64,000 bases of DNA from Jeotgalibaca dankookensis. GTDB lineage: Bacteria > Bacillota > Bacilli > Lactobacillales > Aerococcaceae. The stretch is from positions 372,001 to 436,000 of the forward strand of contig NZ_CP019728.1 in assembly GCF_002005405.1 (NCBI RefSeq). Reading direction: 5' to 3'. Below, one piece after another: positions 22,661-33,425 of the stretch (position 1 is the first letter of the stretch; each line of letters begins with the position of its first letter). A program made the translations under genes and the position numbers. The notes beneath the pieces were generated by a model. It did not search any database, had not been told where the DNA came from, and worked only from the letters and a program-made list of their open reading frames with translations.

Positions 22661-23016
22661 ATGCAAAAAAAACCATTGTTGCAGCGCTTATGCAAATATC
22701 ACCATCGATAGAGGAAGCTGCAGCCAGTTTGGGGAGTGGACAAGTTAATACATTCTTCCGAATCACAGTCCCTATGATGATGACTGGAATTATCTCAGGT
22801 GCAATCCTCAGCTGGATTACTATGCTTAGCGAGCTTTCCACTTCGATTCTCCTGTATAATGTACGCACACGAACGATGACGGTTGCCATCTATACGGAAG
22901 TCATCCGTGGGAACTATGGAATTGCCGCAGCATTGTCCACCATTTTAACTCTTTTCACGGTCGTTTCTTTATTGATATTTATGAAAGTTACCAACAGCGA
23001 CGAAATTACCATGTAA
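22661..23016 (+). pseudogene. Remnant of a binding-protein-dependent ABC permease
   Basis: From 22672 on, one frame encodes TIVAALMQISPSIEEAAASL and the rest of the C-terminal third of an ABC transporter permease of the iron/Fbp type (ASLGSGQVNTFFRITVPMM). The N-terminal two thirds are missing. The only start with a good ribosome site (AAAGGGAG, ATG 22661) is in another frame and runs into a stop after 16 codons; an 8-A run lies at the switch point. This looks like an internal deletion plus frameshift. No partner ATPase or binding protein is nearby. Confidence 0.8.
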
Positions 23017-23130: not shown

Positions 23131-24141
23131 TCAAACAAATTCATCAGGAAAATAATTTTCAATATTTTGGAAATACTTTTTTAATAAGGGATCCTGAGAA
23201 AGGGCGATTGTTTTTGCGAATTCCAACATCGCTTTTACTTTTGGTAAGGTTGATTCACAAAGGAGTACATATCCACAAGCAAAGTCTTTTGTTGGCACAA
23301 CCAAAGCAGTGGCATCAACCATATTCGCAACGCGAATCAAACCTTTTCCCGAAGACTGTTGGGAACGATTCGCTTCATATCCTAAATGTCCCAGGACAGT
23401 ATCGCCAAACCCTAGAAAATCTACTGGACCTTCTTTGGAAATCAAGAAGTCGCACTCGGATAAGTTTTCTTTTAAGAATTCAATAAGTAGTTCCCGTTCG
23501 CCAAATAGGTTAGGAGTCTGAACGATTTTTACATTTTTTGCTACATCTAAATCATCCAGAGGACCTGTTGCAAAAATCCTAGGGGAAGCAATGGTTTTTG
23601 TATCTTCCAATGGAAGCACACACTGAATTGCATGTAAAATAACTTCAAATTCTCGACTCATAAATCCGATAGAAGCGTGAAAACCAATTCCATCGGTTGA
23701 GGTTGAGGAAAATTTTTCTAAATGTTCTTGTTCAATGATCGGGCTAATAAAGCCAAATAATTGAACAGCCATCGCAGGTGCAAGTACTGAACCGCCCCCA
23801 TCTGTACCAATCCCTAAATCATTGATTCCTAATAGAACATTGATAGCTGTTCCACTCGATGAACCAGTCATTGGGCGACCACTTATTGGATTGATTAAGG
23901 ATACATCAATAGCTCGACCTCCCATACTAGCTTTGTCCAATGTATGCAAAATATAGCGAAAGGTTTCTAATTGTTCAATCAAATGACGAGGAATGTGGCT
24001 TTTATTTTTTACGCCCATGTAACGACTTCCTACTGAATACTTTTCTAAAGCGCGAGGATATACTTTCTCTACACTTTCGTAAGGGTCTTTCATAGCAATA
24101 AAGGTTTGATTTGCTGCTTGGATCCATTCATTAAGTTCCAT
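23131..24141 (-). CDS. Amidase-signature family protein
   Basis: A 336-residue protein with the core of the amidase signature: Lys70 (TLDKASMGG), the GSSSG loop at residues 93-97 and GTDGGGSVLAP with Ser118, giving a possible Lys-Ser-Ser triad. It is shorter than most amidases at the N-terminus, and the usual GTDTGGS reads GTDGGGS, so activity is likely but not certain. The start at 24141 follows GAGAGGTG; the frame extends 13 codons upstream. It is transcribed away from the serine hydrolase/yhf block, with a common intergenic region. Confidence 0.7.
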   Translation of the reverse strand: MELNEWIQAANQTFIAMKDPYESVEKVYPRALEKYSVGSRYMGVKNKSHIPRHLIEQLETFRYILHTLDKASMGGRAIDVSLINPISGRPMTGSSSGTAINVLLGINDLGIGTDGGGSVLAPAMAVQLFGFISPIIEQEHLEKFSSTSTDGIGFHASIGFMSREFEVILHAIQCVLPLEDTKTIASPRIFATGPLDDLDVAKNVKIVQTPNLFGERELLIEFLKENLSECDFLISKEGPVDFLGFGDTVLGHLGYEANRSQQSSGKGLIRVANMVDATALVVPTKDFACGYVLLCESTLPKVKAMLEFAKTIALSQDPLLKKYFQNIENYFPDEFV

Positions 24142-24215: not shown

Positions 24216-24291
24216 TTGCAATTATAACCTATGTGTTTTAGTATGAATTGTATACTACTTTACGTTTCAATGTACAAAAAAATGTAAATTG
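24216..24291 (+). promoter_or_regulatory. Promoter plus palindromic operator before the serine hydrolase
   Basis: TTGCAA (24216-24221), 17 bases, TAGTAT (24239-24244). Downstream lies a 24-bp dyad (24268-24291) of the form CAATnTACA-N6-TGTAnATTG. The same operator, differing at one base, lies before yhfU at 25879-25902. Its position after the -10 suggests repression by blocking elongation or initiation. Confidence 0.75.
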
Positions 24292-24329
24292 AAGCATAAA
24301 GTAATAAAAAATAGAAAGGAAGATAGAAT

Positions 24330-25679
24330 ATGAAATTAAGAATGGCAACAGGGGCAATTCTTGCAGGAGCTGTATTTTTATCCGGATGTCAGCCCACAGA
24401 TCAAGAAGGCGGTGAGTCGCAGAGTTCTGTGACAGAAAGTTCAGTAATGGAGAGTCAATCTTCAGAAGAACAAGTGACTGATAACCAATTGAAAGAGGGC
24501 TCAGCTGAAGAAGCAAACATGGATGAAGAAACGCTTGCTGAAATTGATCAAATTGTTGAAGCCGCTATGGAAGAAAAAATTATTCCAGGAGCAGTGGTAT
24601 TTATTGCAAAAGACAATACCATTGTAAAAGAAACGGCATATGGCTATGCTCAGAAATTTGATATGGGTGAAGAATTAAGTGAGCCAATTGAAATGACAAC
24701 TGATACCATATTTGATTTAGCATCCGTTACAAAAGTAATGGCAACTACGCAAGGAATTATGAAATTAGTTTCTGAAGGTGAAATATCTGTAGATGATCAA
24801 GTAGCTATGTACGTACCTGATTTTAGTAAAAATGGAAAAGAAGAAGTTACGATTGCCGACTTACTGACTCACACATCCGGATTGACGCCATGGGAACCTA
24901 CGTATTTAACTGCGAAAAATCGAGAAGAAGTATTGGACTACATTAATGATTTACCATTAGAATATGAAACTGGAACGGATCGAAAATATAGTGATTTCAG
25001 TTTCATGACGCTAGCCTTTATTTTGGAAAGCATTACAGATAAACGTTTGGATGAATATCTACAAGATGAGATTTATGGTCCGCTTCAAATGGAAGATACC
25101 CTATTCAATGCTGCCGAAAATACAGAGCAACCGATTGCCGCAACGTCATGGGGAAATCCTTATGAATATAAAATGATTGAAGATGATGAGTTTGGCTATA
25201 CAGTGCCAGAAGATCCAGAAATGTTTGATGGCTGGAGAGAATATACGTTAGTTGGTGAAATAAATGATGGAAATGCTTTCTACGCAAATGAAGGGATTGC
25301 TGGTCATGCAGGATTATTTTCTACTGCTAAAGATTTAGCGGTTTTAGGACAGACCATGTTAAATGGAGGAACCTACGGCGATGTAGAGTTATATAGTCAA
25401 GAAGTTCTCCAAACATTTACTAGCCCACAACGATTCGATCAAGGATATGGATGGGAATTGAATAAAGAGTGGTACATGGGTGACCAACATTCTGACCAAA
25501 CGTTTGGCCATACTGGTTTTACGGGAACTCAAGTAATCTTTGATCCAGAATATAACGTACAAATTATTATATTAACCAATAAACAAAATAACGGACAAAA
25601 AGAAGATGGCTCCTATGCTAGTACGGGACAGTTATCTCAAGACATATCCAATAAAGTATACGAATCGATAAAAAAATAA
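24330..25679 (+). CDS. Secreted lipoprotein serine hydrolase (class C beta-lactamase-like)
   Basis: A lipoprotein signal peptide ends in the lipobox LSGC with Cys20. A Ser/Glu-rich linker to about residue 65 would hold the enzyme off the membrane. The domain is of the beta-lactamase/D-aminopeptidase/esterase type: nucleophile Ser132 and Lys135 in SVTK, Tyr220-Ser-Asp, and an HTG motif in TFGHTGFTGT near residue 395. Such proteins cleave D-peptides, amides or esters. It is unlikely to be a resistance beta-lactamase given its context: it shares promoter architecture and operator with the yhf operon, so it probably processes that pathway's substrate outside the cell. Confidence 0.85.
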   Translation: MKLRMATGAILAGAVFLSGCQPTDQEGGESQSSVTESSVMESQSSEEQVTDNQLKEGSAEEANMDEETLAEIDQIVEAAMEEKIIPGAVVFIAKDNTIVKETAYGYAQKFDMGEELSEPIEMTTDTIFDLASVTKVMATTQGIMKLVSEGEISVDDQVAMYVPDFSKNGKEEVTIADLLTHTSGLTPWEPTYLTAKNREEVLDYINDLPLEYETGTDRKYSDFSFMTLAFILESITDKRLDEYLQDEIYGPLQMEDTLFNAAENTEQPIAATSWGNPYEYKMIEDDEFGYTVPEDPEMFDGWREYTLVGEINDGNAFYANEGIAGHAGLFSTAKDLAVLGQTMLNGGTYGDVELYSQEVLQTFTSPQRFDQGYGWELNKEWYMGDQHSDQTFGHTGFTGTQVIFDPEYNVQIIILTNKQNNGQKEDGSYASTGQLSQDISNKVYESIKK

Positions 25680-25693
25680 AAAATTAGCATAAG

Positions 25694-25803
25694 AAGTGTC
25701 CGAAAAATAGAGTATCATAAGCCCACTTCAAAGTAGTTTGCTTTTTACAGTTTCTACTTTGAAGGGAGTTTATCAATCAGGACCTATACGGACACTTTTT
25801 TTA
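25694..25803. repeat. 104-bp inverted-repeat element (terminator or MITE-like)
   Basis: AAGTGTCCG (25694-25702) and CGGACACTT (25789-25797) bound a nested, imperfect inverted repeat whose inner arms CTTCAAAGTAG and CTACTTTGAAG also pair. A T tract follows, so it can end transcription of the serine hydrolase gene. Its long terminal repeats are more elaborate than a normal terminator and recall a miniature transposable element. Confidence 0.65.
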
Positions 25804-25819
25804 TTTTTTTAGAAAACCC

Positions 25820-25902
25820 TTGCAATCTAAAAATACATGGGGTAAACTTACTTATAAGAAAAGGTTTTCAATATATACCAATGTACAAAAAAATGTATAT
25901 TG
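25820..25902 (+). promoter_or_regulatory. Promoter plus palindromic operator of the yhf operon
   Basis: TTGCAA (25820-25825), 17 bases, TAAACT (25843-25848), then the 24-bp dyad at 25879-25902, which is one base different from the one at 24268. Spacing from -10 to operator is similar in both (23 and 30 bases). Confidence 0.75.
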
Positions 25903-25932: not shown

Positions 25933-26298
25933 ATGAAAAAAATTGTAGTAGGCGGTCAGATTGACAAAAAAGAAGTTGCAGAATTAGTAGAAAAGTATGC
26001 ACAAGGGAAGTTTGAAGTAGAGACCAAAAGTGATTTGGAAGCAGCGATGGCACTTAAAAATGGTACAGCTGATTATTACTTTGGCGCTTGTAATACAGGA
26101 GGAGGCGGTGCTCTAGCAATGGCAATCGCACTTGTAGGTAGACCGAAGACCGCAACCGTTTCTATGCCAGGAAAAATTATGCCCGAAGAAGAGATCCGCG
26201 AGCAAGTTACGTCAGGAAAAATTGCATTTGGTTTTACAGCACAACACAAAGAGAACGTGATTCCCATTCTAATGGATGAGTTATCGAAATTATCATAA
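25933..26298 (+). CDS. yhfU: YhfU-like protein (DUF2620)
   Basis: A 121-residue protein like E. coli YhfU. It opens with a beta strand KKIVVGGQIDK and has a glycine-rich GACNTGGGGALAMAIA segment that could bind phosphate or a nucleotide. Function is unknown. The start at 25933 follows GGAAGG; a further 11 codons upstream overlap the operator and are not used. It is the first gene of the operon and precedes the transporter gene, as a soluble partner of the transporter might. Confidence 0.8.
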   Translation: MKKIVVGGQIDKKEVAELVEKYAQGKFEVETKSDLEAAMALKNGTADYYFGACNTGGGGALAMAIALVGRPKTATVSMPGKIMPEEEIREQVTSGKIAFGFTAQHKENVIPILMDELSKLS

Positions 26299-26325
26299 TA
26301 TTATAATGTTAAGGAGTGAGTGAGT

Positions 26326-27624
26326 TTGGATATTATACAATTAGTTGTTGTAGGGGCATTAGGTGCTCTCGCTGCTATCTTATCAAATACGGGGATTGCT
26401 GTATTTAACGATGGTCTTCGTCCCGTTATGCCAGAATACTTAGACGGTGTCATTAGTAAGAAAGAATTGGCAGCAACCAGTTTCGCAGTCAGTTTTGGAT
26501 TGGTAATCGGGTTTGGTATTCCCGTTTCCATTGGAGCAAGTATTATTTTAGTTCATAGTTTATTATTGATGACCGATATTATTGGTACATGGACTCCAGA
26601 CGGTAAAAAAGGAATGATCATAGCCGGGGTCATCGGTGCCGTTTATGGTATCGCATTAACATTAGGCTTACAAGCAGTTGTTGACTTATTCGCAATGTTA
26701 CCGGTTGATGTATTAGGTGCTCTTGGAGCAGTTGGAGCCCCAATCGTTATTGGATTTGCAGTGTTCCCAGCAGTTGCAGTTGCGTATCAACATGGATTTA
26801 ATAAAGGTGCGATCACCTTAGCAACCAGTACATTGGTATTATTTATTGTAAAACGTTTCGGAACATTCCAATTAAATGAACAAACGTCTTTCACATTATC
26901 TGCAGAAGGAATGGCTCTTCTAGTAGGAATGATTTTCATGCTCATCTTTGCAGTTCAAGTAAAAGGCGAGTCAGAAGACAATCAAAACCTAGTAAGTATT
27001 TTTGTTGAACGGGTTACTCGCATTAAGAAAAACTGGATTATTCTTTCTATTGTTGGTGGTTTAGTTGCATCTGCAACCAGTTTAACCATTATTGCTGGAG
27101 ATCCAATTTCCTTGAATTTATTAAGTGAAGGTAAATTCGGTGAAGCAGCACTTGCCGCTTTTGCTAGAGGAATTGGTTTTATTCCATTAGTATTCTCTAC
27201 CGCTATTGTTACCGGTGTATACAGTCCAGCTGGAACCACATTTGTATATGTAGCAGGAATTTTGCTTCATGGAAATCCAATCTTTGCTTTCCTAGCTGGT
27301 GCAGCTATTATGTTTGTAGAAGTAAACCTATTGAATGCAGCTGCCAAAGGATTGGACCGTTTCCCAGGTGTTCGTGACATGGGTGAACATATCCGTACCG
27401 CGATGAACCGCGTCTTGGAAATTGCCCTTCTAGTAGGTGGAGCGATGGCAAGTGAACAAATCGCACCAGGTATTGGATTCTTCTGGGTATTTGGAGCCTA
27501 TCTGATGAACCGTACTGCTAAGAAACCATTAGTGGATATGGCAGTTGGCCCTGTAGCTGCAATCGCCTTAGGAATTATTGTAAATATTCTTTATGTATTG
27601 GGACTTTTTGCCCCAGTCGTTTAA
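26326..27624 (+). CDS. yhfT: YhfT-like membrane transporter
   Basis: About 432 residues with ten or more hydrophobic helices. It is clearly related to E. coli YhfT: VFNDGLRPVMPEYLDGV, LPVDVLGALG, TTFVYVAGILLHGNP and the C-terminal NILYVLGLFAP all have counterparts. It is probably the uptake system for the pathway substrate; no transport activity is established to my knowledge. TTG at 26326 (nine bases after AAGGAG) is preferred over GTG at 26320, which is too close to the ribosome site. Confidence 0.85.
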   Translation: MDIIQLVVVGALGALAAILSNTGIAVFNDGLRPVMPEYLDGVISKKELAATSFAVSFGLVIGFGIPVSIGASIILVHSLLLMTDIIGTWTPDGKKGMIIAGVIGAVYGIALTLGLQAVVDLFAMLPVDVLGALGAVGAPIVIGFAVFPAVAVAYQHGFNKGAITLATSTLVLFIVKRFGTFQLNEQTSFTLSAEGMALLVGMIFMLIFAVQVKGESEDNQNLVSIFVERVTRIKKNWIILSIVGGLVASATSLTIIAGDPISLNLLSEGKFGEAALAAFARGIGFIPLVFSTAIVTGVYSPAGTTFVYVAGILLHGNPIFAFLAGAAIMFVEVNLLNAAAKGLDRFPGVRDMGEHIRTAMNRVLEIALLVGGAMASEQIAPGIGFFWVFGAYLMNRTAKKPLVDMAVGPVAAIALGIIVNILYVLGLFAPVV

Positions 27625-27697
27625 AAATTAAACAGAGGTGCTGGACCATATTGGTTTGGCACCTTCCCTTTTTAACACAGAGAAAGGAATGAATAAA

Positions 27698-28579
27698 ATG
27701 CCTCTAGTTGAAGGAATCACCTATGCACATGAACATACAACAATCGACCTCTCATCTTTAAAACATACTGAAGATACCAATCTAAACTGTTTTGAGGAAA
27801 CGGTGAAAGAATACAAGAAGTTATACGAAAAAGGGGTTCGAAATGTAGTTGATGTTACCGTTCGAGGAATGAAACGCAATCCTGAATACGTACAACGAGT
27901 AGCCGAAGCTTCTGGAATGAATATTTTGCAATCCACTGGATGGTATCAAGATAAGTTTTTACCAGAATACATTTATGAAAAATCTGTAGAAGAATTAGCG
28001 CAGATGATGATCGACGATATCCAAAAAGGAATCGACGGAACTTCTATCAAAGCGGAACTGATTGGTGAAATTGGAACGAGTAAAAACGAAATGACAGAGC
28101 GAGAACGGAAAGTTTTTGAAGCTGCCGTCTTCGCTCAAAAAGAAACCGGAGTTCCCATCACTACTCATACGACACTAGGTACGTATGGAAAAGAACAAGT
28201 TGAATTTTTTAAAGAGCAAGGTGCAGATCTTTCTAAAATTGTCATAGGTCATGTTGACCTTACCGGAGATACCCAATATGTATTGGACCTTTTAAAAGAA
28301 GGAGTGTACGTAGAATTTGATACGGTTGGAAAAGAAAACTACATGCCCGATGCAACTCGTTTAGAAATGTTAAAATCAATCGAAAAAGCTGGCTATACCG
28401 ATAAAGTTTTTCTTTCAATGGATATTACTCGCCGATCACATTTGGAGTATAAGGATGGATTAGGTTACAGTTTCTTACTAGACTCCTTTATTCCCTTGCT
28501 ACGTGAAGGCGGATTATCAGAAGGATTTATCCAAAAAATGCTAGTTCACAATCCTCGTGCATTTTATCCATCTTATTAA
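27698..28579 (+). CDS. php: Phosphotriesterase homology protein (Php/YhfV)
   Basis: A 293-residue amidohydrolase-superfamily enzyme, the same size as E. coli Php. Metal ligands are visible in order: HEH near residue 11, Glu in ELIGEIGTS, His in PITTHTTLG, His in VIGHVDLTGD and Asp in SMDITRRS. That makes an active hydrolase likely, but the natural substrate of Php is not known to me; lactones and phosphoesters are typical for the superfamily. ATG 27698 is chosen over 27689 on spacing from AAAGGA. Confidence 0.88.
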   Translation: MPLVEGITYAHEHTTIDLSSLKHTEDTNLNCFEETVKEYKKLYEKGVRNVVDVTVRGMKRNPEYVQRVAEASGMNILQSTGWYQDKFLPEYIYEKSVEELAQMMIDDIQKGIDGTSIKAELIGEIGTSKNEMTERERKVFEAAVFAQKETGVPITTHTTLGTYGKEQVEFFKEQGADLSKIVIGHVDLTGDTQYVLDLLKEGVYVEFDTVGKENYMPDATRLEMLKSIEKAGYTDKVFLSMDITRRSHLEYKDGLGYSFLLDSFIPLLREGGLSEGFIQKMLVHNPRAFYPSY

Positions 28580-28598
28580 ATAGGAGGTATCTGACTAA

Positions 28599-29687
28599 AT
28601 GAAAACTTATCCATTAAAAAGCATTACCGTAGAAGAAGCAACAGAAAAACAATTTGGCTTAGTAGATGCCATCACGCAAGTTTTTGAAGGAAAAGATATC
28701 TTAACAAGAGGCGACTTAGGCGTCGTACCTGGATATAATCAACCGATTACTACTCATAAAGTAGAAAAAGTACTGGCTCGTTTTTTTGACGCAGAGGCTG
28801 CCATGCTCATTAGAGGAGCCGGAACGATGGCAATCCGGTTGGCTTTACATGCAGCTTTACCAAGGAATGCGACTTTATTAGTTCATGAAGCGCCCGTTTA
28901 TCCAACGACACAGGTGACATTGGATATGTTGGGAATTAAAACAGTAGTAGCAAATTTTAATGATGTAAAAGAATTACAAAAAGTATTAGAAAACGAAACG
29001 ATTGATGGTGCGTTAGTACAATTAACGAGACAAAAACCAGATGATTCTTATGATAGTCAAGCTGTTATTGAATGCATTAAAACATTTGCACCCAATCGAC
29101 CCATCATTACGGATGATAATTATGCCATCATGAAAATTTCCAAAATTGGCTGCGAGCAAGGAGCCAATCTTTCTTGCTTCTCGACCTTTAAAGTATTAGG
29201 ACCAGAAGGAGTCGGATGCATTGTAGGAGATCAGAAGTATATTGATATTCTTCGCAAAGAAAATTATTCTGGTGGTCTACAAGTTCAAGGGTTCGAAGCA
29301 CTAGACGTATTACGTGGAATGGTTTATGCTCCAGTAGCACTTGCTTTGTCTGCTAAGGTTACTGATGAAGTATGCACGCGTTTGAACGAAGGAGAAATAC
29401 CGGGTATTAAAAAAGCTTTTATTGCGAATGCACAATCAAAAGTCATTTTAGTAACCTTTAACAAGCCCATCGCACAAAAAGTATTAGAACAGGCTGAAAA
29501 ACTTGGATCTGCACCTAATCCAGTTGGCGCTGAATCAAAATATGAAATCGTACCGATGTTCTACCGAGTGTCCGGAACTTTCCGTGCTGCTATCCCTAAT
29601 GTAGAGACCAATACGATTCGTATCAACCCCATGCGTGCTGGAGCAGATACCATTATACGAATTCTCAAACAAGCAATGGAAGTGTAA
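28599..29687 (+). CDS. yhfS: YhfS-like PLP-dependent enzyme
   Basis: A 362-residue fold-type I PLP enzyme resembling E. coli YhfS. The Schiff-base Lys is probably in SCFSTFKVLGPEGVG; Asp in ITDDNYAIM would hold the pyridine nitrogen. AEAAMLIRGAGTMAIRLAL resembles the phosphate-binding loop of cystathionine lyase/selenocysteine synthase-like proteins. It could be an aminotransferase, lyase or synthase. The start follows TAGGAGG and it lies 19 bases after php. Confidence 0.85.
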   Translation: MKTYPLKSITVEEATEKQFGLVDAITQVFEGKDILTRGDLGVVPGYNQPITTHKVEKVLARFFDAEAAMLIRGAGTMAIRLALHAALPRNATLLVHEAPVYPTTQVTLDMLGIKTVVANFNDVKELQKVLENETIDGALVQLTRQKPDDSYDSQAVIECIKTFAPNRPIITDDNYAIMKISKIGCEQGANLSCFSTFKVLGPEGVGCIVGDQKYIDILRKENYSGGLQVQGFEALDVLRGMVYAPVALALSAKVTDEVCTRLNEGEIPGIKKAFIANAQSKVILVTFNKPIAQKVLEQAEKLGSAPNPVGAESKYEIVPMFYRVSGTFRAAIPNVETNTIRINPMRAGADTIIRILKQAMEV

Positions 29688-29711
29688 TATTAAACGAAAG
29701 TAGATAAAATT

Positions 29712-30635
29712 ATGAATAAACACTTTTACCAAAAAAAGGGTTTGGCAATTGAACAGATTGCTAATGAACTTTATCAATTAAAAAAAGGCGATCGGATGCC
29801 CAACATTAGCGAATTTCAAACGCAATTTTCACTATCCAGAGGAACCGTGCAGAATGCATTAAAATTTCTCAAAGAAGAGCAAGCAATCGAAACAGAAAGC
29901 AAAGGGCACTTAGGAACTTATCTCAAAATGATTAACCACCAAGTCCTATTACCATATATTTCGTCTCGCCAACTTTCTGCAACGATGCCTTTACCATATT
30001 CGCGATTATATGAAGGATTGGCCACGGGTTTATATACCGCTTTTCGCGATAAAAATATTAAGCTAAATTTAGCTTATATTCGTGGATCGGAAGAACGGAT
30101 TCGCGCCGTAGAAGAAGGCGTTTTTGATTTTGCAGTTGTATCACGATTTGCAGCACAATATGAAATCGATAAAGGCAGAGCGATTAAAATAATTATGCAG
30201 TTTGGTGAACAAACGTATTTATCTCGTCATGTTTTACTTTTCCGACAAGGGGTTGAACAAATCATGAGAGATGGATTACGAGTAGGTATTGATACGGACT
30301 CATTAGATCATAAGCTTTTAACCAATGAAATCACTGAGGGGTTTGATGTTGAGAATGTAGATTTACCAAGTAATCAATTAATTTATGGTCTACGTGAATC
30401 ACAAATTGATGCAGGAGTTTGGAATTATGATGAAATTATCGATAAACGTTTGGAAGATGTACAATTTACTGAATTACCGGTAAAGAACCATCATAAGGAA
30501 ATGAGTGAGGCGGTGATTATTTGTCAAAAAGAAAATACACTGGTTTCCTCTACCTTAAAACGTACATTAAATGTTAATCAAATTCGTGATATTCAGTCAC
30601 AAGTAAAAAATGGACACATGACCCCACGATACTAA
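29712..30635 (+). CDS. yhfZ: YhfZ-like transcriptional regulator
   Basis: 307 residues. The N-terminal 60 form a winged helix-turn-helix (MPNISEFQTQFSLSRGTVQNALKFL). The rest resembles a periplasmic-binding-protein-like ligand domain (PYSRLYEGLATGLYTAF, FDFAVVSRFAAQYE). This is the E. coli YhfZ arrangement. It is the only DNA-binding protein in the cluster, so it is the best candidate for binding the two 24-bp operators, with a pathway intermediate as effector. Confidence 0.85.
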   Translation: MNKHFYQKKGLAIEQIANELYQLKKGDRMPNISEFQTQFSLSRGTVQNALKFLKEEQAIETESKGHLGTYLKMINHQVLLPYISSRQLSATMPLPYSRLYEGLATGLYTAFRDKNIKLNLAYIRGSEERIRAVEEGVFDFAVVSRFAAQYEIDKGRAIKIIMQFGEQTYLSRHVLLFRQGVEQIMRDGLRVGIDTDSLDHKLLTNEITEGFDVENVDLPSNQLIYGLRESQIDAGVWNYDEIIDKRLEDVQFTELPVKNHHKEMSEAVIICQKENTLVSSTLKRTLNVNQIRDIQSQVKNGHMTPRY

Positions 30636-30660
30636 AACATGCGAACAAAGGAGAATTTAG

Positions 30661-31023
30661 ATGATTCAAGAAAAATTAACGATTTTAAAAGAAAATGATG
30701 TCATAGATGGGACCACTTACGAGGATATGCAAGTAGCGTTGAATTATTTGAAGCAAGAAAATGTCATTACAGAAGAAGATGAAGCGGATACGTTTATCAC
30801 GCATTTAGCGATGGCGACTTCTCGTCAGCGGAAAAATGAAGAGCAAGTAGATTCTGTTGATCCAATGATTAAACAAGAAATTGAAGCAGCGCTAGAATAT
30901 AAAAAAGCTGTTGCAGTATGGAAGCAACTATCTGAGAAAATTGACGTTGATTTTCCGAAAAATGAAGATGATTATTTTTATCTTCATTTAGTGACGCTTC
31001 TTCAAAACAAGAAAGAGAAGTGA
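30661..31023 (+). CDS. yhfY: YhfY-like PRD-domain protein
   Basis: A 120-residue, all-helical protein corresponding to E. coli YhfY, a single PRD-like domain with no DNA- or RNA-binding part. TFITHLAMATSRQRKNE and DDYFYLHLVTLL are the equivalents of the two conserved His segments of PRDs. It might let the PTS or a phosphoprotein act on the YhfZ regulator; that is inference. Confidence 0.75.
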   Translation: MIQEKLTILKENDVIDGTTYEDMQVALNYLKQENVITEEDEADTFITHLAMATSRQRKNEEQVDSVDPMIKQEIEAALEYKKAVAVWKQLSEKIDVDFPKNEDDYFYLHLVTLLQNKKEK

Positions 31024-31029
31024 TACCCT

Positions 31030-32187
31030 ATGTTTATGAAGAAAACAATAGAACGAAATCCGAACCTAATTAATACCGCTATTCAACTACATCAATTAGG
31101 AGAAATTCAACCGGATACTTATGTATTAGATGTAGATACTATTTTAAAAAATGCGCGACTTATTCTGGATGAAGCTAATAAACAAGGAGTAGAATTATAC
31201 TTCATGCTTAAACAAATTGGACGAAATCCTGATTTAGCGAAATTGCTAATCGAAGCTGGGTTCCCGGCAGCAGTCGTCGTTGATTTTCGTGAAGCAAAAA
31301 CGATGATGGCAAATCATATTCCTTTAGGAAATGTTGGGCATTTAGTGCAAATCCCTACTCATTTATTAAGAGAAATCATGGAATATGGTACCCAGTACAT
31401 TACCATTTATTCACTGGATAAATTAAAAGAAATTAATCAAGTAGCAAAAGAATTAGGAATAACTCAAAAAGTATTAGTCCGTGTAGTGGATGAAGGGGAT
31501 GCGCTATATCCAGGTCAATATGGAGGATTTGAGTTAAAGGACCTTTCTAAGTATATTGAGGATTTTAAAAAAATGAAGCATATCGAAATCGCTGGAGCAA
31601 CTTCATTCCCTTGTTTCCTTCAAAATACAAGAAAAGATATATTGGAAAAAACAAATAATGCAGATACCATCTTAAAAGCACAAAATCTATTGTTGGATGC
31701 GGGCTTTCCAGCAAGAGAATTGAACATGCCTTCCACAACTTCTGTTTATACCTTGCCTTTTATTCATGAATTAAAAGGAACACAAGGAGAACCTGGTCAT
31801 GCATTAACAGGAACCACTCCGATGCATGCAGAAAAAGATTTGCCAGAAGTTCCTGCCTATGTGTATGTGAGTGAGGTTTCCCATAATTTTAAAGGGCATG
31901 CATACTTATATGGGGGCGGATTGTATCGACGAGGAAATCTGAAACATGTTTTATTTGATCAAAAAGGAAAACGTTGGCAGTCAACTATAAAACCTTTACC
32001 GGAAGAAAACATTGATTATTACTTGGAAGTAAATGAAGAAGAGCCGGTAGGAACAACCGCCATTATGGCATTACGTACTCAGATTTTTGTAACAAGAAGT
32101 GAAGTTGCTCTTGTAAAAGGAATCCAAATAGGGATACCAAAAATAATGGGAATTTACGATAGCCAAGGGAAATACTTGAGAGGATGA
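31030..32187 (+). CDS. yhfX: YhfX-like PLP enzyme, alanine-racemase type fold
   Basis: 385 residues with an N-terminal PLP barrel like alanine racemase: strand TYVLDVDTILKNARLI, then Lys in YFMLKQIGRNPDLA as probable PLP lysine, and a Gly-rich phosphate-binding segment in the second half. A C-terminal domain follows, as in E. coli YhfX. Racemase or D-amino-acid lyase activity is plausible. ATG 31030 has a weak ribosome site; ATG 31036 is an alternative. Its end overlaps the following gene region. Confidence 0.85.
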   Translation: MFMKKTIERNPNLINTAIQLHQLGEIQPDTYVLDVDTILKNARLILDEANKQGVELYFMLKQIGRNPDLAKLLIEAGFPAAVVVDFREAKTMMANHIPLGNVGHLVQIPTHLLREIMEYGTQYITIYSLDKLKEINQVAKELGITQKVLVRVVDEGDALYPGQYGGFELKDLSKYIEDFKKMKHIEIAGATSFPCFLQNTRKDILEKTNNADTILKAQNLLLDAGFPARELNMPSTTSVYTLPFIHELKGTQGEPGHALTGTTPMHAEKDLPEVPAYVYVSEVSHNFKGHAYLYGGGLYRRGNLKHVLFDQKGKRWQSTIKPLPEENIDYYLEVNEEEPVGTTAIMALRTQIFVTRSEVALVKGIQIGIPKIMGIYDSQGKYLRG

Positions 32188-32192
32188 GAAAG

Positions 32193-33425
32193 ATGGGAAG
32201 ATTTATCGTAATTGTTCTAGATAGTTTTGGAGTAGGAGCAATGGAAGATGTTCCGGAAGTAAGACCTGCTGATATGGGTAGCAATACTGCTCTACATATC
32301 ATCGAAAGAAAACCGAATATTAAAATCGCTACTTTGGTAGAACTAGGTTTAATGAATGCGATTGGTGAAGAAACCAATCGTTTGAAATTTTCTTCCAAAG
32401 CCAATTGGGGAAAAGCAAATCTTGGACACCAAGGAGCAGACTCTTTCCTGGGACACCAAGAAATTATGGGAACAACCCCACCAATCCCACTCAACCAAGC
32501 TTTCAGCGAAATAATTGATGAAGTAGAGCATCATTTAAAAGAAGCAGGATACCATGTTCGAAGAGAAGGAGCAAAAGGTGAGCCAAAAATCTTAGTGGTA
32601 AATGACTCTGCAACAGTAGGAGATAATTTAGAAACAGATTTGGGGCAAGTTTTTAATGTATCTGCTTGTCTAGATCTTATGCCTTTTGAAGAAGTGAAGA
32701 AATTAGGAAAAGCAGTCCGAGAAGTAGTGAAAGTATCTCGTGTCATCGCTTTTGGTGGCGAAGAAATTCGTCTAAATGATTTATTAAATGCTCGCAAAGT
32801 GATAGGAAATAAGTTTGCTGGTGTGGATGCACCAGAATCAGGTGTATATAACAACGGGTATCAAGTTATTCATTTAGGATACGGCATTGATCCAGAAGTC
32901 CAGATCCCTACTATATTAGATCATGAAAATATCCCAGTTACCTTAGTTGGAAAAGTAGGAGACATCGTGCAAACGTCTAGCCCGTATGTTTTCTTAGGAG
33001 TGGATAGCGATGACCTATTCGACAGCTTGATTTCTCAAGTAAAAAAAATAAATACGGGTTTTTTCTGTTTAAATATTCAAGAAACGGATTTAGCAGGTCA
33101 CGCTGAAAATGTAGATCGGTATGCAGACCGCTTGGAAGTGAGCGACAAACGAATCAAAGAACTAATTCCACTTTTAAACGAAGAAGATATTCTTATTGTT
33201 ACAGCTGACCATGGAAATGATCCAACCATTGGACATAGTCAACATACCCGTGAATACGTGCCTTTGCTGATATATCGGAAGGGAATGGAAGGACATGAAG
33301 TTGGGATACGTAATAACATGTCCGATACGGCTGCAACAGCCGCGGCATACTTTAATGTGAAAAAACCGCAACACGGAGTTCCTTATTTAAATCTTATTCA
33401 AAATCATGAGGATTCAATAAACTAG
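32193..33425 (+). CDS. yhfW: YhfW-like phosphopentomutase-family enzyme
   Basis: About 410 residues of the alkaline phosphatase/phosphopentomutase metalloenzyme superfamily, closest to E. coli YhfW. Key parts are FIVIVLDSFGVGAM with the first metal Asp, GADSFLGHQEIMGT with the region of the phosphorylated residue, NIQETDLAGHAENVDRY and TADHGNDPTIGHSQHTRE with metal ligands. It may move or remove a phosphate on a sugar-like intermediate. ATG 32193 is preferred; ATG 32184, overlapping the yhfX stop, is possible. Confidence 0.85.
   Translation: MGRFIVIVLDSFGVGAMEDVPEVRPADMGSNTALHIIERKPNIKIATLVELGLMNAIGEETNRLKFSSKANWGKANLGHQGADSFLGHQEIMGTTPPIPLNQAFSEIIDEVEHHLKEAGYHVRREGAKGEPKILVVNDSATVGDNLETDLGQVFNVSACLDLMPFEEVKKLGKAVREVVKVSRVIAFGGEEIRLNDLLNARKVIGNKFAGVDAPESGVYNNGYQVIHLGYGIDPEVQIPTILDHENIPVTLVGKVGDIVQTSSPYVFLGVDSDDLFDSLISQVKKINTGFFCLNIQETDLAGHAENVDRYADRLEVSDKRIKELIPLLNEEDILIVTADHGNDPTIGHSQHTREYVPLLIYRKGMEGHEVGIRNNMSDTAATAAAYFNVKKPQHGVPYLNLIQNHEDSIN

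Follow-up and report, generated by a model that had tools for sequence, protein, structure and literature searches.

Two almost identical palindromes of 24 bp lie in the leaders of neighbouring transcription units of the yhf cluster of Jeotgalibaca dankookensis, and the question they raise is which protein reads them and with what effect on transcription. The window analyzed here is a stretch of 64,000 nucleotides of contig NZ_CP019728.1, and all coordinates refer to it. On its forward strand the cluster comprises a gene for a lipoprotein serine hydrolase (Beta-lactamase family, PBP4B-like; 24330..25679), yhfU (DUF2620; 25933..26298) as the first gene of the yhf operon, and the remainder of that operon (26320..33425) encoding YhfT, a phosphotriesterase homologue, YhfS, YhfZ, a PRD protein, YhfX and YhfW. 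A divergent amidase-family gene (23131..24141, reverse strand) is also a member of the conserved cluster, and in relatives the serine hydrolase gene is found within or adjoining the yhf operon. An open reading frame at 22690-23016, compared by eye only, resembles the C-terminal part of an ABC transporter permease and is apparently a truncated remnant of such a gene.

Two boxes in the leaders of the serine hydrolase gene and the yhf operon

Box 1, CAATGTACA-AAAAAA-TGTAAATTG (24268..24291, forward strand), is located between the amidase and serine hydrolase genes in the leader of the latter, and box 2, CAATGTACA-AAAAAA-TGTATATTG (25879..25902, forward strand), in the leader of the yhfU operon. 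They differ at a single base (position 20, A/T); the A6 spacer is also largely conserved, with the A6 strand corresponding to the sense strand. Promoter 1 (24216..24244, forward strand, TTGCAA-17-TAGTAT) ends 23 bp and promoter 2 (25820..25848, forward strand, TTGCAA-17-TAAACT) 30 bp 5′ of its box, both promoters being consensus matches rather than mapped starts, and the boxes precede the ribosome site. The preliminary description of this DNA had reported the two 24-mers, their one-base difference and their placement 23-30 bp past TTGCAA-17 bp promoters, and it was correct on each count.

Chance alone, estimated from base composition, would give 7e-5 perfect matches to the 16 fixed positions in the window and 0.002 in the 2.1 Mb genome; two are seen. 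The whole 2.1 Mb host genome contains no third copy at two mismatches or fewer, and three-mismatch sites occur at about the frequency found with a reversed-pattern control. A counterpart of box 1 is present 5′ of the same serine hydrolase gene in genome G054 (locus L055), where promoter and box are arranged as at promoter 1. Counterparts of box 2 are present in most relatives, many of which have a TTGCAA/TTGCAT-17-TATAAT-like promoter 5′ of the box.

Between the serine hydrolase gene and yhfU, at 25686-25808, a long inverted repeat (AAGTGTCCG ... CGGACACTT) is followed by T-runs. Its single copy in the host genome rules out a repeated element, and it is probably a terminator dividing the two box-controlled units.

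YhfZ and its relation to known regulators

Among the proteins of the cluster, Pfam recognizes a DNA-binding domain in YhfZ (29712..30635, forward strand) alone, as had been proposed from the sequence; in the PRD protein it recognizes neither an RNA- nor a DNA-binding part. YhfZ belongs to family NF041241, which it matches over its full length (residues 4-307) with 391.8 bits against the curated cut-off of 260, and it carries the Pfam domains HTH_41 and YhfZ_C by which that family is characterized. Its structure model (pLDDT 89.9) matches 2ozz, the structure of Shigella YhfZ, which comprises the C-terminal domain only. This domain has a type II binding-protein fold (Z 26 to 2OZZ, about 15-16 to amino acid and opine binding proteins), so that the modelled YhfZ is probably a small-molecule sensor. 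One of the structural alignments spans mainly the C-terminal domain and thus has no bearing on the helix-turn-helix (HTH) part. The HTH gives weak Pfam matches to both the GntR and the CodY models, and aligns with CodY structures over the recognition helix and the wing. A literature search among open-licence papers found none dealing with a YhfZ operator, the yhf regulon or the box sequence.

NCBIfam names YhfZ a GntR family regulator, and its N-terminal HTH is related to that of the family (FadR, HutC, YtrA), whose members have FCD, UTRA or MocR C-terminal domains, whereas that of YhfZ resembles periplasmic binding proteins. GntR operators share the consensus GT-Nx-AC, the centre of which is conserved (PMC4494728). 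The box, TACA-N6-TGTA, has the reversed AC..GT order and a variable A/T centre, and is not an operator of the GntR type. CodY, described as a roadblock repressor, recognizes the half-site AATTTTC (PMC10415144), which is similar to AATRTAC or AATATTC in the YhfZ boxes, and roadblock repression is also what we propose for YhfZ. In the CodY box, AATTTTCWGAAAATT, the half-sites are only 1 bp apart, whereas the 9-bp halves read by YhfZ would be 6 bp apart and contain TACA rather than TTTC; the sites are therefore not CodY boxes. The two proteins differ too in that CodY combines a GAF ligand domain with a large regulon, and YhfZ a binding-protein-like domain with a putative regulon of one cluster.

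Distribution of the box

True YhfZ is encoded in eight of the 76 genomes of the family, and in all eight the box stands at the start of the yhf operon. The scan of the order comprised 395 genomes. Of its 32 genomes with YhfZ, 13 contain the strict pattern AATNTACAAAANNNTGTANATT, always within about 5.3 kb of yhfZ, compared with a single one of the 363 lacking YhfZ (Fisher p 6e-15). Where YhfZ genomes lacked a one-mismatch site near yhfZ, a box was found in every region fetched (L061, L110, L111, L112, L113 and L115), with G284, G363 and G375 lying outside this comparison. A scan of public genomes yielded 44 YhfZ loci from Lactobacillales, Erysipelotrichia, Lachnospiraceae, Bacillaceae, Peptoniphilaceae, a Chloroflexi MAG and others; 40 have a TACA box scoring >14 bits, one more (Chloroflexi) has an altered form, and three have no clear box (L083, L099 and L104, the last on a 3 kb contig). 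An iterated symmetric matrix found 74 sites >14 bits in 50 loci, compared with 0-2 in shuffled loci. The sense-strand consensus is CAATRTACA-AAAWWW-TGTAYATTG.

Where loci differ in gene order, the site of the box tracks transcription starts: it stands 5′ of yhfU, the serine hydrolase gene or yhfZ, or in the interval from yhfZ to the following gene, and it lies upstream of yhfZ itself in several loci with yhfZ as the first gene. Such genomic specificity and phylogenetic linkage are those expected of the operator of an autoregulated local repressor; the co-occurrence of box and YhfZ is in part due to common descent of the operon. In Enterococcus and Vagococcus (L069-L080), box-like sequences inside the phosphotriesterase gene, about 110 bp from its start, were discounted because they encode a conserved peptide, EYKKLY. 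Alkalibacterium kapii (G094; L063, L064) has two complete yhf clusters, and a yhfZ and a box are present in both. In the amidase-yhfU intergenic regions of L062, L063 and L057, cre-like sequences, e.g. GAAACGCTTTCTTAT and GATAACGCTTTCTTATT, occur near the box, and possible control of these regions by CcpA is suggested by them.

Linkage of the box to yhfZ and not to the yhf enzymes

A regulator encoded elsewhere might bind the box and merely co-occur with yhf operons, and co-occurrence alone cannot separate the proteins of one cluster: YhfU and YhfZ occur together almost perfectly, which also made YhfU uninformative as a test to separate regulators. Four loci, however, have a relative of YhfZ and a box before an operon with no yhf gene set (L100, L105, L110 and L111). 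In G166 and G357 (L110/L111) a divergent YhfZ is encoded beside an operon for a galactitol-type PTS, an aldolase, a dehydrogenase and a kinase, and the box of G166 is a perfect palindrome, CAATATACA-GTATAC-TGTATATTG. In L105 (Peptoniphilaceae) the relative is encoded at the end of a GlpA/GlpB/kinase operon, and in L100 beside a mannose-type PTS, with a weaker box of 17.7 bits. In the loci compared, the box tracks yhfZ rather than the yhf enzymes. The retention of the box by YhfZ relatives in four different gene neighbourhoods, its near absence from the 363 genomes without YhfZ, and its alteration where the recognition helix of YhfZ is altered make a regulator encoded elsewhere very improbable. 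The preliminary description, which had assigned both sites to one regulator, YhfZ, is supported by the specificity to yhfZ loci, the recurrence of the box across Firmicutes and the helix-linked altered forms. Its expectation that the motif would be found only near yhf-type operons held as regards specificity to yhfZ loci, and failed in that the box also accompanies YhfZ relatives without the yhf enzymes, next to operons of the galactitol, glycerol-3-phosphate or PTS type.

L110, L111, L105 and L109 represent a second YhfZ-like branch, linked to operons for FAD oxidase/aldolase/galactitol PTS/FGGY kinase or glycerol kinase/GlpD, a gene content suggesting sugar- or polyol-linked ligands.

Altered half-sites accompany altered recognition helices

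Nearly all loci with a TACA box encode the recognition helix [SA]RGT[VI]QNA. Where its Arg is replaced by Val or Leu (in E. coli, Cetobacterium and a Chloroflexi genome), TACA is changed to TTCA in both halves. E. coli YhfZ (b3383) is of the same family, is encoded with the same gene set and is likewise accompanied by box-like palindromes, but its recognition helix is SVGLTQAA and its half-site AATATTCA. The K-12 strain has two such sequences: a perfect palindrome built in the same way, AAATATTCA-AAAAAA-TGAATATTT, between yhfY and yhfX (NC_000913.3, 3511006-3511029), and AAATATTCA-ATTTAC-TGAAAATTT directly 5′ of yhfZ. Cetobacterium has TTATTTTCA-AAAAAA-TGAAAATTA between a TTGACA/TATAAT promoter and yhfZ (recognition helix SLGTIQKA), and the Chloroflexi locus TTGTGTTCA-TTATTT-TGAACAATT between promoter and yhfZ (SVGTVQSA). 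In Vibrio halioticoli one good half only, TGAAGATTT, follows an A6 run, the Vibrio recognition helix being SVGYIATA. A simple code in which Arg43 specifies TACA is contradicted by the YhfZ proteins of L110/L111 (G166, G357), which have Thr43 and yet retain the TACA box, so that residue 43 alone does not set specificity. Among the sequences compared, the link between helix and half-site is a correlation that involves residue 43, and not a one-residue code.

Position of the boxes and proposed mode of action

Most boxes start 0-36 bp past the -10, before the ribosome site; the box overlaps the -10 in G166/G357 (L110, L111) and covers a -35 in L105, and some leaders have a second box further downstream. 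With respect to consensus-match promoters, the position is thus compatible with repression in most loci, and a box at or past the -10 fits a block of initiation or roadblock repression and not a classical upstream activator.

We propose, with a probability of about 0.83 for the whole model including repression and ligand release, that both 24-mers are operators for YhfZ, itself a product of the yhf operon. The protein would bind the 9-6-9 palindrome as a dimer whose two winged helix-turn-helix domains contact one half-site (CAATRTACA) each, on either side of the A-rich spacer. Bound 3′ of the -10 region and 5′ of the ribosome site, it would halt RNA polymerase at or just after initiation, by blocking or as a roadblock, a mode of repression that we infer from this location of the box. 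Since yhfZ lies inside the operon it would control, the regulation would be autogenous. A small molecule held in the C-terminal periplasmic-binding-protein-like domain is assumed to release YhfZ from the box. The predicted regulon in the host genome would be limited to two units, the serine hydrolase gene and the yhfU-yhfW operon. Box 1 is situated about 67 bp upstream of the probable promoter of the amidase gene, which makes direct control of that gene by this box doubtful.

YhfZ might instead bind the box and activate transcription, or switch between activation and repression. Activation is common among LysR regulators, whose ligand-binding fold is similar, and some leaders contain tandem boxes spaced by 58-127 bp. 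The boxes are mostly downstream of the -10, however, with none found consistently upstream of a -35, and we regard activation as unlikely. Helical phasing of the tandem boxes was considered and rejected, the spacings (58, 63, 67, 68, 106 and 127 bp) being not consistently in phase.

Repression by YhfZ leaves one feature unaccounted for. In 19 of 21 lineages it is the sense strand of the spacer that is rich in A (77% A among A+T, compared with 53% in the flanks), a strand bias that a symmetric homodimer does not predict and that may stem from shared ancestry or leader composition. A polar or dual DNA/RNA operator, in which the A-rich sense strand of the spacer matters in the transcript or YhfZ acts as a one-way roadblock through the oriented A-tract, appears quite improbable. 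The bias, together with the location of most boxes in transcribed leaders, would also suit an RNA element. In this view the palindrome, once transcribed, would fold into a hairpin with an A-rich loop 5′ of the ribosome site, and this hairpin would bind a protein (e.g. the PRD protein) or affect translation or the stability of the mRNA. Pairing between the halves is slightly above that of shuffled halves (421 vs 402 ± 5 of 504), but about 16% of the pairs are broken, many boxes contain one or two mismatches, the halves are often unlike (TACA on one side, TGAA on the other) and the median folding energy is only -3.0 kcal/mol, which is not the stable stem with compensatory changes of a regulatory hairpin. 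Moreover, the boxes over the -10 (L110, L111) or the -35 (L105) could not give a full RNA hairpin, and in these three loci no PRD gene was found beside yhfZ. An RNA element is accordingly rated very unlikely, and YhfZ acting on DNA remains the preferred reading.

Conclusions

The uncharacterized regulator YhfZ is encoded next to a conserved set of genes of unknown function, yhfS-X and php, in bacteria ranging from Firmicutes to E. coli K-12. As judged from the sequences, its predicted box is conserved beside yhfZ across Firmicutes and altered in E. coli, Fusobacteria and Chloroflexi, and it is unlike GntR operators although databases file YhfZ as GntR. The box ties the serine hydrolase to the yhf pathway by putative regulation, and the amidase is tied to it by conserved linkage, which constrains the role of the pathway. 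A defined candidate operator makes YhfZ binding, ligand screening and regulon mapping directly testable, including in E. coli.
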